A stretch of 38,565 nt of DNA from a virus: positions 1 through 38,565 of the IMG/VR virus record IMGVR_UViG_3300021963_000298; one strand, given 5' to 3'. The position numbers were made by a program, and so were the translations under genes. Position 1 is the stretch's first letter. Every line of letters begins with the position of its first letter. The notes below the pieces were generated by a model. It was not told where the DNA came from. It saw nothing but the letters and a program-made list of their open reading frames with translations, and ran no database searches. Below, in pieces: positions 3,643 through 38,565 of this stretch.

Positions 3643-4878
3643 TTAAACCATACCGGGATTTGACTTACCGCCCTGCCAAGAGCCTGGCGGGGAAGCTGGA
3701 GCTTTATTACCAAACATCCCACCTAATGCGCCTCCAATTCCGGGGACAGCCGCGCCAAGAACACCTCCGAGAATAGACCCTAACGGAGACGAGCCTTGAT
3801 TCGCCATCTGCGTCCCATACATCTGCGCCTGTGTGCCGAAGATGTTGCCGGCAAACTGAGCGGATTGCTGTCCAGCGTTCGCGTTCTGACCGATGCCTTG
3901 AGTCATAATCGGAGTGTACGGAGATGCGCTCTGCTGCGCCCCTTGCAACGACTGGAACTGGCTGCTGATAGGTGCGCCGAGGACGTAGGATTGCAGGTTA
4001 GACAGACGCCGCTGCTGCTGTTGCTGAGTCTCTTGGCGACCAGACTGCTCCTGAGAGAACTGGGTGTTCTGAGCATTGAACAGGTTCTGTAGTCGAGCCT
4101 GAGCTTGGTTCTGACGAGAGCCAGCAAGCGCGGACTCCTGACCAAATGTCTGCTGACCCACGTTCATCAGGTTGCTCAATCGCTGCTGGGCTACCTGCTC
4201 TCCAAGGTTGAACTTGCCTAGAACCTCACGCAAAGCGGTGCCGCCAGACAGTGCTTGACCGCGAGCCGCGCCAGCACCGCGAACAGATTGTTCGACCTGA
4301 CGCTGCTGCGACCCACTAAGCTCACCGCCAAGGCTGAACTCAGAAAGGGCGCGTTGCATTGCAGCATTACGTCCCGCTTGCAGCATTGCATTGTCGCCGG
4401 TATCCGTCTCTGGAGTACGCAACGCTTGAGAGATTCCAGCCTCACGAAGCATCCGGCTGGTGGCACTCTCGGCTATATCGGGTTCAGCCGAGTAGTCGCT
4501 GCGAAGGCCAGCAGCAAGCTCTTGACGAGCAGCGTAACCGGCAGGGTCTTGACGCTGCAATGCGTCTAAGGCTACCTGCTGGAATTGAGGAGCGTACTGT
4601 TGAGCGATACCCAACTGGTTCGCCGCCTCAAGGTTTGCCGTCTCTCCGCGAAGCTGGGTTTGAAGACGCGAAAGGTCAATGTCACCCTTGCCGGTGAAGT
4701 CGGCAGTAATATCATTGCCGGTCTTGGGATCTTTGTAGGTGACGGCTGTGCCTGCGCGAGTGGCGTAGTCTAGGAGTCGGCGAATAGGCAGCGTCTCGAT
4801 GTCGGCATAGATGCCCTCTCGATTAGCGGCTGCGTAGTCTGGCGGTGCTGGTGCTTCTGGTTGACTTCCTTTACCCAT
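3643..4878 (-). CDS. Gln-rich internal virion / ejection protein (411 aa)
   Basis: The middle of the protein is dominated by Gln, Ala, Ser and Gly (for example a run of five glutamines near residue 285), predicting long helices. Near the C-terminus is a Gly-zipper hydrophobic segment, LGSILGGVLGAAVPGIGGAL, typical of proteins that insert into or cross membranes during DNA ejection. It starts with MGKGSQPEAPAPPDYAAANR, a Pro-rich N-terminus seen in phage virion-associated proteins. AAGGAG lies about 8 bases before ATG 4878, one of the few clear ribosome sites in this operon. The start overlaps the end of the GNAT-like gene by 8 bp. Function is inferred from composition and position. Confidence 0.8.
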   Translation of the reverse strand: MGKGSQPEAPAPPDYAAANREGIYADIETLPIRRLLDYATRAGTAVTYKDPKTGNDITADFTGKGDIDLSRLQTQLRGETANLEAANQLGIAQQYAPQFQQVALDALQRQDPAGYAARQELAAGLRSDYSAEPDIAESATSRMLREAGISQALRTPETDTGDNAMLQAGRNAAMQRALSEFSLGGELSGSQQRQVEQSVRGAGAARGQALSGGTALREVLGKFNLGEQVAQQRLSNLMNVGQQTFGQESALAGSRQNQAQARLQNLFNAQNTQFSQEQSGRQETQQQQQRRLSNLQSYVLGAPISSQFQSLQGAQQSASPYTPIMTQGIGQNANAGQQSAQFAGNIFGTQAQMYGTQMANQGSSPLGSILGGVLGAAVPGIGGALGGMFGNKAPASPPGSWQGGKSNPGMV

Positions 4879-24753: not shown

Positions 24754-24773
24754 AAGGAAACAAAACTATGAAC
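24754..24773 (+). promoter_or_regulatory. Repeated translation-start leader, copy 1
   Basis: AAGGAAACAAAACTATGAAC is identical over 20 bases to the leader at 25752-25771. The start codon ATG is at 24768. AAGGA lies 9 bases upstream. Close variants precede genes at 23599, 26111 and 31562, so this looks like a copied, standard initiation element. Confidence 0.6.
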
Positions 24774-25443: not shown

Positions 25444-25659
25444 ATGAACACCAACGTATTCGAGGCAGAGAAGGCGGCGTTCGCCGCCTACGAGGCGGCG
25501 TACAACAAAGCCGCCGCCGCCAGCGCGGCAGTGGGCATAGACGCCCACGAGCGCGAGGTTATGCGCTCCTACGAGGCAGCCTGCGACGCCGCAAAGAAAG
25601 CCTACGACGCCGCGTCCTACGCCGCGTACATGGCAGACGAGGCGTTCCGGCGCGGCTAA
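25444..25659 (+). CDS. Ala/Tyr-rich helical mini-protein upstream of the ribozyme (71 aa)
   Basis: About a third of the residues are Ala, with Glu, Lys and Tyr spaced as in a single long amphipathic helix or coiled coil (EAEKAAFAAYEAAYNKAAAA). No family is recognised. Its stop codon TAA is at 25657-25659, and its last base is the first paired base of the hammerhead ribozyme, so a terminating ribosome would cover the 5' strand of ribozyme stem II. Confidence 0.7.
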   Translation: MNTNVFEAEKAAFAAYEAAYNKAAAASAAVGIDAHEREVMRSYEAACDAAKKAYDAASYAAYMADEAFRRG

Positions 25660-25714
25660 GTCGAAACAGGCAGCAGCCCGTCGGTTGGCTTGAGATGCCA
25701 GCCCTGATGAGACT
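25659..25714 (+). ncRNA. Hammerhead ribozyme, type II topology
   Basis: All core parts are present in order. Stem II 5' strand AGTC (25659-25662); GAA (25663-25665); stem III 25666-25681, with A25666-T25681 closing, five further positions of which one is an A-C mismatch, and loop AGCA; cleavage base C25682 in a GTC triplet; stem I GGTTGGC (25683-25689) with GCCAGCC (25697-25703), seven pairs including one G-U, loop of seven; CTGATGA (25704-25710); stem II 3' strand GACT (25711-25714). Self-cleavage is expected between 25682 and 25683. Stem II may continue past an internal loop (CCGGC, 25717-25721, with GGCGCGG upstream). It lies exactly between two early genes. Activity is inferred from the complete consensus. 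Confidence 0.85.
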
Positions 25715-25721
25715 CTCCGGC

Positions 25722-25738
25722 GCACCGACGAACGGTGC
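25722..25738 (+). other. Hairpin between ribozyme and next gene
   Basis: GCACCG and CGGTGC pair around ACGAA, a 6-bp perfect stem, 8 bases after the ribozyme and 27 bases before ATG 25766. After self-cleavage it would lie near the 5' end of the downstream mRNA together with the stem I hairpin. Confidence 0.5.
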
Positions 25739-25751
25739 AGCAAACGGTAAA

Positions 25752-25771
25752 AAGGAAACAAAACTATGAAC
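25752..25771 (+). promoter_or_regulatory. Repeated translation-start leader, copy 2
   Basis: Identical in 20 bases to 24754-24773, with ATG at 25766. It gives the gene after the ribozyme the same initiation element as the gene after the noncoding tract, so both noncoding RNAs are followed by the same leader. Confidence 0.6.
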
Positions 25772-26077
25772 ACCAACACCACCACCACCACCACACGGCA
25801 GTCGTTCGACGAAGCATACACGCTGCTTAGGAAACTGCAGAAGCAGGGGTTCGGCAACCCCACGCACGAGGAGTGTGAGAAAATGGTGTATTGCCCTCGG
25901 GGCGTAGTGTTCTCCAACACTGGGGGCTACGTCTCGTACCAAGACGCCGTCGCCCTCGGCGCGTACGGGATATGGAAAGACAAGGACTTGCAGTCCACTG
26001 GTTACACGGCGCGCTGGCCTCAGCACTGGTTCGAAGATGAGGACGGCATGTTGGACGACAAGTTCGTGCAGTTATAA
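25766..26077 (+). CDS. Protein of unknown function downstream of the ribozyme (103 aa)
   Basis: After a Thr-rich start (MNTNTTTTTTRQSF) the protein has helix EAYTLLRKLQKQGFGNPTHE, then a strand-rich part (MVYCPRGVVFSNTGGYVSYQ) and an aromatic, acidic end (ARWPQHWFEDEDGMLDDKFV). No catalytic or metal motif is seen. Its mRNA would carry the 3' product of the hammerhead cleavage as its 5' end. Function unknown. Confidence 0.75.
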   Translation: MNTNTTTTTTRQSFDEAYTLLRKLQKQGFGNPTHEECEKMVYCPRGVVFSNTGGYVSYQDAVALGAYGIWKDKDLQSTGYTARWPQHWFEDEDGMLDDKFVQL

Positions 26078-31416: not shown

Positions 31417-31549
31417 CGAACAGACACCCATCAAAGACGCGATACACCTAACGTGTGCTGCGTTCCTTTCAACCCTGTTGGTAATCGTAACCATTCCTTG
31501 CCTCCCCTTCGTGTGGCTTTGGAATGTCATAGTAAACAACGAAGAATAG
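31406..31549 (+). CDS. Tiny single-pass membrane protein (47 aa)
   Basis: The frame from ATG 31406 to TAG 31549 codes MKPNEQTPIKDAIHLTCAAF followed by LSTLLVIVTIPCLPFVWLWN, a clear transmembrane segment of about 25 residues, and a short polar end. A tiny membrane protein in an early operon could be a holin-type, superinfection or host-takeover factor. No family is recognised. Confidence 0.65.
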   Translation: MKPNEQTPIKDAIHLTCAAFLSTLLVIVTIPCLPFVWLWNVIVNNEE

Positions 31550-31561
31550 GAAACAAAACGT

Positions 31562-31900
31562 ATGCCCCAAATCGAACACAACCATCCCGAAGGTAAGCGC
31601 GAGTATGTCCAGAAGGATATGACCGGCTCACTCTTCATCAACCGCAACAAGTCAAAGGACACTGCCCCCGACATGACCGGGGACGTGACCATCAACGGTA
31701 AGAAGTGGCGCATTGCCGCTTGGAACAAGACGAGCAAAGGCAACACCCAGTATCTAAGCCTTAGCTTGAGCGAGCCACTGCCTCCGCGTGAGGGGAGTGG
31801 GCAGGTGGTGACACCCGAAGCCACTGTCGGTTCACTGATGAAGGAGCTTAGTGCTATCACTGGCGGCAAGAAGGATGATGGACAGAACATCCCGTTCTAA
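31562..31900 (+). CDS. DUF736-like, possibly single-strand DNA-binding protein (112 aa)
   Basis: The pattern MTGSLFINRNKSKDTAPDMT, then GDVTINGKKWRIAAWNKTSK and YLSLSLSEPLPP, follows DUF736-type OB-like proteins of phages and plasmids ('G-lf-N-kk---PD--G-v-i-G-e--iaaW-k'). Many of these are placed near single-strand binding or replication genes, as here. The C-terminal stretch ends GGKKDDGQNIPF, a short acidic tip like that of SSB proteins (DDGQNIPF), which in SSB binds partners. Confidence in the exact family is moderate. Confidence 0.6.
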   Translation: MPQIEHNHPEGKREYVQKDMTGSLFINRNKSKDTAPDMTGDVTINGKKWRIAAWNKTSKGNTQYLSLSLSEPLPPREGSGQVVTPEATVGSLMKELSAITGGKKDDGQNIPF

Positions 31901-34384: not shown

Positions 34385-37300
34385 TTAGAACGGCATCCCG
34401 CGTCGGCGCAACTGAACCAGCGTAGCATCAGTAACAACGCCCTTGCGGTAAAGGCCTTTAACATAGTCCAACTGTTGGTCTTTGGGGATTCTGCTCAAGC
34501 GCGTCATGATGATGCCTGAGCGTTCTTCTGGAGGAAGCTGAATCAGAACCTCATCTTCTCGCGTGACTCCCCTAGACTTGCCTGTTAAGATTTCTTTAAT
34601 CTTCTGAACCAAGTCAGGCTGTGTCCTTCCGTACTTTTTTGCAGCTTCCTGATAAATGTCGCTCAACTTCGCACCCTCTCGCTGATCCACGAACTTAACT
34701 GCTTCACGGCGACGGTCAACAGACCTATCGGCAGCACTTTGCCTTGCCTCTTCAATCAACTCTTTGTCTGCATCCTCTTTGTATCCAGAGCGAACAAGTC
34801 CTAAGATATTCGCAGGTCCGTTTTCATCGCCCTCAATCGGTTTATCGGGGAGAACCTTCCCAGACAACCCGCCAGTCAACCCGCTCAACGCCAAGCGCAA
34901 CTTCAATGGAGACATTCCAAGGTATCCAGCCATTACCTTGATGTTCTCGTTGGTGCGCTCACCAAACTGTCTGTCAACAGAAGCTAACTCCATGAAGCGT
35001 GGAACAGTCTGTTTACCAGCGTAGAAGTCTTTCCCGGTCATATACTCTGCGAAAACTTTAAGTAGCGGATTAAGTGAGGCAGCAGCACTCATCATCTTCT
35101 TCTCTGCCGTATCTCCCTTGACGCTGAACGGGAGGATGCTCTCACTCGCACCAGCCAGCATCTCGTTGAAGTGCTTCTGGTCAGTAACCTTCGCGTAGGC
35201 CATTGCATCTTCAATGGATGATGCCATCATCTTAGTGATGCCGCGCTTCTGGATGCGGTAATACTTGCGAACCTTTTCGCCAGTAGCACTGGTGATGAGT
35301 GTGTCTGTTGGAATCATCCAGTAGTCTCTACGCTCGCTTGCAGATATCTTCTCGAAGTCATCCTCGTAATCCTTCGTGAGATGATTCAGCGCATACGCGG
35401 CTAGGGTGGCTGTGCCAACGAATAAGCCAGCGCGAGTAAGAGCCGCCCTAGCAGTGTCTCGCTCATGCTTAGTTGCTCCAGACTTCACGTTGTCCAGCAT
35501 GCGCCCAATCGTAGAGGCGTTACCTTGAATGGTTGCGGGAACGAAAATGAGAAGCGTAGTAAGGTTTGCGGATTTAACAAGGCTACCGCCACGAAGGAAG
35601 TCGGGTGAGCCGCCGTAGTTGCGAACCTCTGCAATCAGGTTCATCGCATCCTCAGTCGTCATCTGCGAGATGTTGTTCACGCCTGCTTTGTCGAGGAGCC
35701 GCTGGAACACAGCGAGCTTTGTTGTCTCTTCAATCACTCGGCCAATATCGCCAATCGTGTTGAGGATGTCGCCTTTCCGACCGGAACGACCACCGCCTAC
35801 TGCCTCGAAGGATGCCTGCAATCCGCCGCCAAGGACGCCTGCTTTTTGAGCGGCAAGGTATCCTGCTGGAGTTGCTCCGCTTCCCATGTTGCCGGCATAA
35901 GCCAGCTTGAACGCTTTCCACACTGCGAAGATGTAATTGATTGCATCCACGGGATTGCGAACACCCGCCTCAGACACAATCGCTGCGTTCGGCATGTCGG
36001 AGAAGAAGAAGTTTCTGAACTGGAACGGAATAGATGCTGTCGTTGCGCCGAAACGAACAAGCGCAGCCATAGCTGTAGTGATGTTGCTTAACGCATTAAC
36101 AGACCGTGGGATTGCGGCAACCGCTGCGGCAACATCTTTGTGAACTACGATTTGTTTGAGTTTACCCTTAACCAGAACGCTAATTGCGTCCTCTCGAATC
36201 AGAGCCGTGTCATCAACGCGAGCTAGCTCTGGGGCGTTGGCTTGTTTAGCTAGTTCATAGAGGTACAGGTTAGCCGTATTGATGTCCGCTCTGGAATGAA
36301 CCTTTGTGTAGTATTCCAGTGCAGCATCAAGTGCCGGTCTAAGCTTTGCGTCAGGATCCTGCTGCCCCTTAGCACTTGCCAAAGGTGAGTAGCCACCTTG
36401 TCCGTCAGCAGTGCCGCCTCTGCCGCCACGTTGCCCGACTTCAGTTTTGATGAACGGAGCGTAGAAGGCATTAGGGACTTTCAGCTTGTTGTATTCAGCC
36501 TCAGTAATTAACTGTGACTCAAGCATCACATCTAGCATGGAGTCCATCGACTGCTTGTAGATTTGCAGAGATTGGCGTACACCAGCCCAATTCCCAGACT
36601 GAATCAAGTCAGTCCTGAGCTTGTCGATGTTCGAGTCTACGTCACTCTTGGTCATCTTCCGCCCGTTGTTGAACGTGTCTATCCCATTTGCGATACGAGT
36701 CCCCGCTGCGAAGAAGAAGACCAACTCAGAAAACTGCTTCTCAACACCCAAGATGAGAGGATTAATCTGCTCGGACAGTTCTGTGAATCGAGCTTCAGCT
36801 TTGCCCCGGCTTCCAGCAACAGCCTCATACATTCTAGCAAGGCGGAACTTAATCTTGTAACCGCTAATCTTCTCAGCCAACTTGCTTTGAAGAGCGTCAA
36901 GCGGTGCGAATCTTGCGACTAGAGCCGCCTTTATTTTATCGAAAGTGGTGACTGGACTGTCCTTGAGATTCTCCGCATCAAACACATTCGTTCCAGTTGG
37001 CGGGACTGGAGGAGTAGGAGCAGGCGGAGTGGCGGCTGGCGGCGCGGGCGGTGCGGGCGGGACTGGAGGAGCGGCAGTAACCACTGGAGCAGCAGCGGGA
37101 GCAGGGCTTGCCTTGCTCCATCTTGCTCTTGCCTTGCTTGCCTCATTTGCTGCTTTAGCCGCTCTACCATTAGCTTTCCGAGCGGCGGAATTTGCTGCTT
37201 TAACTTGAGCTTTGAGAGCGTTGATTTTCTTGTTTAACTCACTAATCGCTTTCTTCTCTTCCTTAGTCTTCTTGGCATCTACCACACTCTGCATTGCGGG

Positions 37301-38565
37301 AGTTGCAGCAGCGGTCGTGGGAGTGGTGGGGAGTGGTTCCACTACCTTTCCGCGAGAATAAACAAGATCGTGTTTACCATCCCCAATATGCTTATAAATA
37401 TCAACCTTGCTACCATCAAGTGAATTTACAAAGTTGCCAGACTCATCGGTTGGAAAAAAAGTCCTACCCGGAGAGTGTCTGCCAGTTTGTGATGTTTTTA
37501 ATGGTCCTGACGTTGTAATGATGTAATAATTTGGTGCTTCCTTAGAGTAGGAAAGTTTTGCCTCTCCTTTGCTGAACGACGGCCACGCAGTTGGCCGCCC
37601 GCTAAGGTTAATCTTTCCGGGTCTATCAAGAGCGAGATCCGACGTTGCAACTGACCTAACTATCCCTGTTTCGACAATATCAGCGAAAGCCTTGTCGCCT
37701 TGCACCACCCTGTAAAATGTTTGAGGGTCAGAAAAATAATCAGCCGTTACACTTTTAACCGCCCCCGTCTCGGCGGTGGGGGTGGCGGGAATGGATTGGG
37801 ACAGCTCACCCGTCTTCGCTTGCTCGGATGGTTTATTCCTTAATTCCTTAACCCTCGCCAGATAAGCCTGTTTCTGTTCTACCGTTAATCTGTCAAGGAT
37901 TGCGCTTTCTTCTGCGGTTAATCGTCCAGCTTTTGGATCTGTATCAGCAACTTTAACCGCGATTGATTCAAGATTAATCGTGGCAGACGTGGCGGGAAGC
38001 ATAGCAGCCTCGAGCTTTGCTTCAGTAGCCACAGTAGCCTGTGCTGGCGTTTGTGGGACTATCTGAGTGCGTAGAGCGACAGCGGCTGCAAGTGCCTCAT
38101 TTGCTATCTTAACTTGGGCATTGGCAGCGGCAGCAGTTTCATTGGCTGTGACAAGATTGGCATCTGCGGTAGCTAAAAGTTCGGTATTCTTATTATTAGT
38201 AGCTTCAGCAAGAGCGGCTGCGTGAGAGATTACTGGAGGCGCACCAGCATCAAACTGGCCTTTAGGCGACATTGCGTCGAATGGCGTACTCGCATCTTGA
38301 GCAACTTCAGTCGCTCTTTGCTCTTGGGATGCTCGAAGGTTCTCAGCGTCGATTAGTGCTTTGGATTGGGAAACGCGAGTAGGCTGGAACATCGCAGAGA
38401 CACCGCCGCCAAGTACGCTGCCTCCAATAGCAGCCATTTTAACTGACTCAATAGCCTGCTCCAACGTAAGCTCTGGATTGAAGGTCATCTTCTCAAGAGC
38501 AGCCTGACCAATCTGATCTGTGACTTCCTCCAACGCTTCGTTTTTTGCGCCTTGAATGAAAGCCC
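34385..38565 (-). CDS. Giant polyvalent-type internal virion protein, C-terminal part (runs off right edge)
   Basis: A frame of 1393 codons runs on past the right edge. A TTG at 38533 is not a real start, because the frame continues and matches 1-2396. Order from the right: Ala-rich helical part, a possible second ART-like domain (about 37735-37330; FYRVVQGDKAFADIVETG, RPTAWPSFSKGEA, NYYIITTSG), a coiled coil and Pro/Ala linker (37200-36990), a long helical region, then an LPD38-like domain at about 36060-35330 (PFQFRNFFFSDMPNAAIVSE; GRSGRKGDILNTIGDIGRVI). The C-terminus is basic and helical, ending LRRRGMPF. Such proteins are packaged and enter the cell with DNA; the role of each domain is inferred. 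Confidence 0.85.
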   Translation of the reverse strand, partial: AFIQGAKNEALEEVTDQIGQAALEKMTFNPELTLEQAIESVKMAAIGGSVLGGGVSAMFQPTRVSQSKALIDAENLRASQEQRATEVAQDASTPFDAMSPKGQFDAGAPPVISHAAALAEATNNKNTELLATADANLVTANETAAAANAQVKIANEALAAAVALRTQIVPQTPAQATVATEAKLEAAMLPATSATINLESIAVKVADTDPKAGRLTAEESAILDRLTVEQKQAYLARVKELRNKPSEQAKTGELSQSIPATPTAETGAVKSVTADYFSDPQTFYRVVQGDKAFADIVETGIVRSVATSDLALDRPGKINLSGRPTAWPSFSKGEAKLSYSKEAPNYYIITTSGPLKTSQTGRHSPGRTFFPTDESGNFVNSLDGSKVDIYKHIGDGKHDLVYSRGKVVEPLPTTPTTAAATPAMQSVVDAKKTKEEKKAISELNKKINALKAQVKAANSAARKANGRAAKAANEASKARARWSKASPAPAAAPVVTAAPPVPPAPPAPPAATPPAPTPPVPPTGTNVFDAENLKDSPVTTFDKIKAALVARFAPLDALQSKLAEKISGYKIKFRLARMYEAVAGSRGKAEARFTELSEQINPLILGVEKQFSELVFFFAAGTRIANGIDTFNNGRKMTKSDVDSNIDKLRTDLIQSGNWAGVRQSLQIYKQSMDSMLDVMLESQLITEAEYNKLKVPNAFYAPFIKTEVGQRGGRGGTADGQGGYSPLASAKGQQDPDAKLRPALDAALEYYTKVHSRADINTANLYLYELAKQANAPELARVDDTALIREDAISVLVKGKLKQIVVHKDVAAAVAAIPRSVNALSNITTAMAALVRFGATTASIPFQFRNFFFSDMPNAAIVSEAGVRNPVDAINYIFAVWKAFKLAYAGNMGSGATPAGYLAAQKAGVLGGGLQASFEAVGGGRSGRKGDILNTIGDIGRVIEETTKLAVFQRLLDKAGVNNISQMTTEDAMNLIAEVRNYGGSPDFLRGGSLVKSANLTTLLIFVPATIQGNASTIGRMLDNVKSGATKHERDTARAALTRAGLFVGTATLAAYALNHLTKDYEDDFEKISASERRDYWMIPTDTLITSATGEKVRKYYRIQKRGITKMMASSIEDAMAYAKVTDQKHFNEMLAGASESILPFSVKGDTAEKKMMSAAASLNPLLKVFAEYMTGKDFYAGKQTVPRFMELASVDRQFGERTNENIKVMAGYLGMSPLKLRLALSGLTGGLSGKVLPDKPIEGDENGPANILGLVRSGYKEDADKELIEEARQSAADRSVDRRREAVKFVDQREGAKLSDIYQEAAKKYGRTQPDLVQKIKEILTGKSRGVTREDEVLIQLPPEERSGIIMTRLSRIPKDQQLDYVKGLYRKGVVTDATLVQLRRRGMPF
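37863..38565. repeat. Right copy of the end-overlap (lacks the insertion)
   Basis: This is the counterpart of 1-1567. The last window base corresponds to base 1567 of the left copy. The reading frame of the giant gene is open through both copies. Eight of the 13 substitutions change an amino acid (for example Q/E, F/L, N/K, R/H, H/N), an unusually protein-altering pattern for such close relatives. Confidence 0.85.

Follow-up and report, generated by a model that had tools for sequence, protein, structure and literature searches.

A type II hammerhead ribozyme with a predicted loop-tail pseudoknot adjoins a stop codon between two putative early phage genes

The locus described here raises the question of whether a short intercistronic segment of a viral genome is a genuine self-cleaving RNA and, if so, what such an element would do between two genes. 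The window, by which we mean the whole stretch of 38,565 nucleotides that was analysed (IMG/VR record IMGVR_UViG_3300021963_000298), contains an Ala-rich upstream cistron of 71 aa (25444-25659) and a downstream cistron of 103 aa (25766-26077) that is preceded by the leader AAGGAAACAAAACT; neither product has a Pfam or PHROG match, and both cistrons, like all features below unless otherwise stated, are on the plus strand. This strand carries small genes lacking Pfam or PHROG matches here, genes for an Erf-like annealing protein and for an exonuclease follow ~3 kb downstream, and the structural genes are on the opposite strand, an arrangement that fits a putative early operon. A preliminary description of this DNA had located the element between a stop codon and the leader of the next gene, on the early (DNA-metabolism) strand, and we find it there. 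Two further observations concern the window as a whole. The leader AAGGAAACAAAAC(T)ATG is repeated before several early genes (24754-24773, 25746-25771 and 31546-31564), and a 1382-aa protein with an LPD38 domain, of the large polyvalent kind, is encoded on the minus strand at 34385-38533.

The segment 25659-25714 reads AGTC GAA ACAGGCAGCAGCCCGT C GGTTGGCTTGAGATGCCAGCC CTGATGA GACT, and its elements follow one another in the type II order: the 5' strand of stem II, (A)GUC (25659-25662), of which A25659 is also the last base of the stop codon; the core GAA (25663-25665); the stem III hairpin (25666-25681), in which 25666-25671 is matched with 25676-25681 by 5 pairs and one A.C mismatch and is closed by the loop AGCA; C17 (25682); the stem I hairpin (25683-25703), in which GGTTGGC (25683-25689) forms 7 bp with GCCAGCC (25697-25703) and is closed by the loop UUGAGAU (25690-25696); the core CUGAUGA (25704-25710); and the 3' strand of stem II, GAC (25711-25713), which also lies within the covariance match given below. 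The CUGANGA and GAAA core is thus accompanied by a UH cleavage site with the A15.1-U16.1 pair (A25666-T25681, the first pair of stem III), and loops close stems I and III while stem II is open. By homology of the C17 position to the hammerhead core, cleavage is predicted between 25682 and 25683, in agreement with the site proposed earlier. Stems of 4, 6 and 7 pairs had been counted for stems II, III and I, respectively; the counts for stems III and I stand, and stem II is probably a 3-bp helix complemented by a pseudoknot, for reasons that come from related sequences.

A search with the downstream protein led to two contigs, L003, which is nearly identical to the window (99.97%), and L004, which is diverged at the locus (78.7% over the whole locus). 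The L004 ribozyme shares 55 of 58 bases with that of the window (94.8%), whereas the flanking genes agree at 444 of 522 aligned positions (85%); the probability of 3 or fewer changes is 0.019, and a Fisher test of the same excess is weak (p 0.045). Two of the 3 changes, A.C to G-C in stem III and U.G to C-G in stem I, restore or strengthen pairs; the third change is in loop III. The 4-bp reading of stem II, which pairs AGTC (25659-25662) with GACT (25711-25714), fared less well. We rejected its fourth pair, A25659-U25714, as a conserved element, T.T being found at that place in L004, and because the outer A-U pair is lost there, a 3-bp stem II (GUC/GAC) is the better reading, which leaves U25714 free for a pseudoknot. 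Similarity between L004 and the window ends directly behind a UCUC tail. A second hairpin (GCACCG-ACGAA-CGGTGC, 6 bp, 25721-25737), reported earlier between the ribozyme and the leader, is indeed present in the window, but it is absent from L004 and hence is lineage-specific and outside the conserved element. A weak match to the DUF2815 RNA over this hairpin (15.3 bits) was also discarded, as it consisted only of the non-conserved hairpin and a ribosome-binding site. Other terminase relatives (49-75% identity) yielded no copy of the ribozyme in such of their DNA as was available, and searches via the downstream protein, the terminase, the Erf protein and a loop-specific pattern returned the same two contigs only; a DNA search of annotated phages gave no match.

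Direct comparison with Rfam gave a weak score. When a 66-base segment was scanned against 4227 Rfam families, RF02276 (Hammerhead_II) was the best family at this locus and in L004, with 20.2 bits (E 0.018) in the window and 27.6 bits in L004 against a gathering cut-off of 37, which is a curation threshold and not a structural feature. Rfam scans of longer stretches (400 nt) with default or stricter filters did not report the ribozyme; the filters were responsible for this, since the 66-nt scan recovered it. Because the RF02276 score was weak, we collected the wider type II class with the pattern GTCGAAAC-N-GTC-N-CTGATGAGAC, taken from the core of the window, so that the core letters are common to the collected set by construction, whereas the pattern has no bearing on the stems, the tail or the Rfam score. 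Matches were found in at least 120 stretches of viral contigs and in 74 stretches of bacterial and archaeal genomes; among the matches listed, 270 non-redundant hits passed a structural filter, and many collected type II hits score above the Rfam cut-off. A covariance model, R1, built from 36 unrelated type II hammerheads of equal geometry with the lineage of the window left out, scored 42.9 bits (E 8.7e-10) on positions 25660-25720 and 49.8 bits on the L004 ribozyme, the next best place in the window reaching 10.5 bits. The covariance check suggested earlier therefore falls short with RF02276 itself and succeeds with the wider set, and the claim of a complete type II hammerhead is upheld.

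Other measures were taken from the window and from a family set, A1. In A1, the GAA core is invariant, as is CUGAUGA save for its second U, and covariation was detected, 17 of the 20 pairs showing changes in both partners. A type II descriptor scan of both strands gave a single match in the window (score 14), and the 7 matches that turned up in a total of 150 first-order Markov copies did not exceed score 11; no type I or III hammerhead was found in the window. Minimum-free-energy folding did not single out the motif (z -0.56), because an alternative pairing of the core is favoured and pseudoknots are invisible to the method; the free energy of the hammerhead helices exceeds that of the free ensemble by 2.3 kcal/mol, the pseudoknot not being counted.

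The pseudoknot is a fourth element, overlooked in the preliminary description, and it is a hallmark of natural type II hammerheads, which pair loop I with the tail that follows stem II (Perreault et al. 2011, PMC3088659). In the window, GAGA of loop I (25692-25695) is predicted to pair with the UCUC tail (25714-25717), and in L004 the corresponding pairing is extended to 5 bp (UGAGA/UCUCA). Among the matches listed, loop I and the tail can be joined by 4 or more Watson-Crick pairs in 213 of the 270 type II hits, whereas ~45 would be expected with swapped tails. In A1, whose rows were chosen without regard to the pseudoknot, the pseudoknot positions are 85.6% paired and show double changes in 5 of 5 pairs. 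On these statistics, U25714 belongs more probably to the pseudoknot than to stem II, which is then 3 bp long and not 4. With its tail, the ribozyme extends from 25660 to 25717, as delimited by the R1 and RF02276 scores and by conservation in L004.

From the sequence, structure, family statistics, conservation and position given above, we infer that the element is transcribed and cleaves, with an effect on mRNA stability; it is a type II hammerhead of the early plus-strand intercistronic region that likely cleaves in cis at 25682/25683 and splits the message. Once the early transcript is made, the ribozyme would fold via stems I, II and III and the pseudoknot of loop I with the tail, and would cleave itself during or after transcription. 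The upstream message would have a short 3' UTR that finishes with the stem III hairpin and carries a terminal 2',3'-cyclic phosphate. The downstream message would start at a 5'-OH with the stem I hairpin as its cap, and its AUG would follow after ~80 nt. Separate messages would thus arise from the polycistronic RNA, with expression and decay uncoupled. The 5' sensor of RNase E needs a monophosphate, and both cleavage ends should therefore be protected. Related phages carry 6-13 type II copies and, at the junctions inspected, mostly have one longest small ORF between successive ribozymes, which fits a role as cistron separator. Several points count against this explanation, namely the A.C mismatch in stem III, the 2.3 kcal/mol by which the helices lie above the ensemble, the sub-cut-off Rfam score, the weak Fisher test and the occurrence of copies in only the two closest contigs among the terminase relatives.

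Arrays of type II hammerheads were seen at several other loci. One phage (locus L006, in a record of 77359 bases) has 13 copies, all on one strand, in ~14 kb, with a small open frame between copies at the junctions inspected. Two contigs of Bathymodiolus japonicus gill symbionts (L322:8-2844 and L252) carry arrays of near-identical copies, one every 200-900 bases, several of them separated by pentapeptide-repeat-like small open frames, which looks like duplicated gene-plus-ribozyme cassettes. An 8-kb contig binned as Lokiarchaeota, though it may be phage DNA placed among archaeal contigs, has four copies (L290:805-3179); in three of these, loop I is very short and stem II is AGUC/AGCC with GACU/GGCU; AAAGGAGGT-like sites follow in two.

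Intercistronic processing of early phage RNA has a precedent in T7, where RNase III hairpins between cistrons split the polycistronic early message and leave hairpin-capped ends. The window ribozyme resembles these sites in the proposed splitting of an early polycistronic message at an intercistronic hairpin, but the T7 sites are protein-catalysed and have no catalytic RNA core. Further likenesses are found among the hammerheads of PMC3088659. The window shares with RF02276 the permuted arrangement with an open stem II, the GUC triplet, the GAAA and CUGAUGA core, the pseudoknot and the phage intergenic site; it differs in a continuous stem I of 7 bp with a 7-nt loop (vs ~6 bp and a 10-nt loop), in a UCUC tail attached directly to stem II, where an A spacer is usual, and in one stem III mismatch and a score below the cut-off. 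The prophage clusters of C. scindens, A. caulinodans and A. tumefaciens are likewise intercistronic, and their proposed role is to divide long phage transcripts into mRNAs of one gene each; self-cleavage of the clustered hammerheads was seen in vitro and, for A. tumefaciens, on transcription in E. coli as well (PMC3088659). Unlike these clusters, the present ribozyme is single-copy in its genome. The HHphage of haloviruses HF1/HF2 also lies close before an early gene, and a transcript 5' end was mapped near its cleavage site; it is, however, described as a variant hammerhead, belongs to an archaeal virus and is located 13 nt ahead of a helicase gene (PMC3088659).

The preliminary description had also noted that the ribozyme starts at the last base of the stop codon. 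In the window, TAA ends directly before the 3-bp stem II, and one base intervenes in L004; the observation holds, and the contact is general in phage copies. Among the matches listed, 72.5% of 204 testable phage hits have a stop codon, with an upstream frame of at least 40 codons, that ends anywhere from 4 nt before stem II to its first base, compared with 5% of random positions, these and the following percentages being approximate because the gene calls are simple open frames. A stop lies within 3 nt of stem II in ~66% of the phage copies listed; about one third have a longer gap, and the listed copies from bacterial genomes are less strict. The commonest arrangement among the matches listed is a UAG that lends its G to stem II as the first base. 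This double use accounts for an excess of UAG, which makes up 45% of the stops before the type II hammerheads of L005-L124 vs 24% for long open frames at the same loci. Next comes the Shine-Dalgarno sequence of the following gene, whose start codon lies a median of 26 nt after GAC among the matches listed. Compaction as the whole cause of the contact was not supported: among the matches listed, the 5' gap does not correlate with the 3' distance (rho 0.04 over 205 junctions), and where the slack is 50 nt or more (45 junctions), the ribozyme is within 3 nt of the stop in 42% of cases vs 7% under uniform placement. Stop-codon contact thus looks like a general rule of phage copies, even at roomy junctions. 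Stop codons are nowhere mentioned, as far as we could find, in the main text of PMC3088659, and a literature search that covered few subscription papers gave no paper on this point.

This contact suggests that cleavage could be coupled to translation, a proposal that is an extension of message splitting by the ribozyme and not a replacement for it. A ribosome terminating on the upstream gene would cover the 5' part of the ribozyme and may briefly block its folding, so that cutting would be timed by upstream translation. In toeprints, a ribosome with a stop codon in the A site covers ~9-10 nt beyond it; in the window these are GUCGAAAC, that is, the 5' strand of stem II and GAAAC, and translation-timed cleavage is therefore physically reasonable. 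Both the excess of stop contacts over random positions and their persistence beyond mere compaction argue for coupling. On the other hand, a short 3' UTR could be selected otherwise, through stability of the mRNA 3' end or avoidance of Rho; the longer gaps in a third of the listed cases and the less strict bacterial-genome copies fit coupling poorly, and L004 lacks the A-U pair that adjoins the TAA in the window. We regard coupling at this locus as a possibility worth entertaining, though we lean against it, and we are more doubtful still that phage type II hammerheads as a class are stop-codon-attached, ribosome-gated switches whose cleavage is licensed by or timed to upstream translation.

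The same stem III mismatch and low Rfam score might instead mark a decaying, inactive relic. We consider this unlikely: the core and pseudoknot are intact, the ribozyme is conserved in L004 despite its diverged surroundings, and a single mismatch beyond two sound stem III pairs would be mild. A role in RNA circularisation or in a mobile RNA of the retrozyme or satellite kind, instead of mRNA processing, is known for hammerheads elsewhere (PMC4918200, PMC7761336), but is very improbable here, as the one copy in the window and in its relatives defines no excised unit and is placed exactly between stop codon and leader. Chance resemblance, which weak Rfam matches of short motifs at other sites of the window (14.8 bits at 4499) might bring to mind, is refuted for practical purposes by the R1 E value, by the Markov copies and by the pair-preserving changes in L004.

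The element is, then, a real hammerhead, but one of a common, already known phage kind. The earlier view of type II as the rarest form has to be given up, since in bacteria this type equals types I and III in frequency (PMC3088659), as does the view that an intercistronic hammerhead is unusual in a phage: the pattern collection contains the same architecture in >100 viral contigs, with up to 13 copies in one phage, and prophage clusters were described by Perreault et al. (2011). The role of phage hammerheads is still called an open question (PMC6155905). The present locus offers a clean single-copy example, and the class-wide contact with stop codons among the matches listed provides a specific handle on function that is worth a bench test. 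If the coupling is true, self-cleavage of each phage message would be gated by the ribosome that translates its upstream gene.
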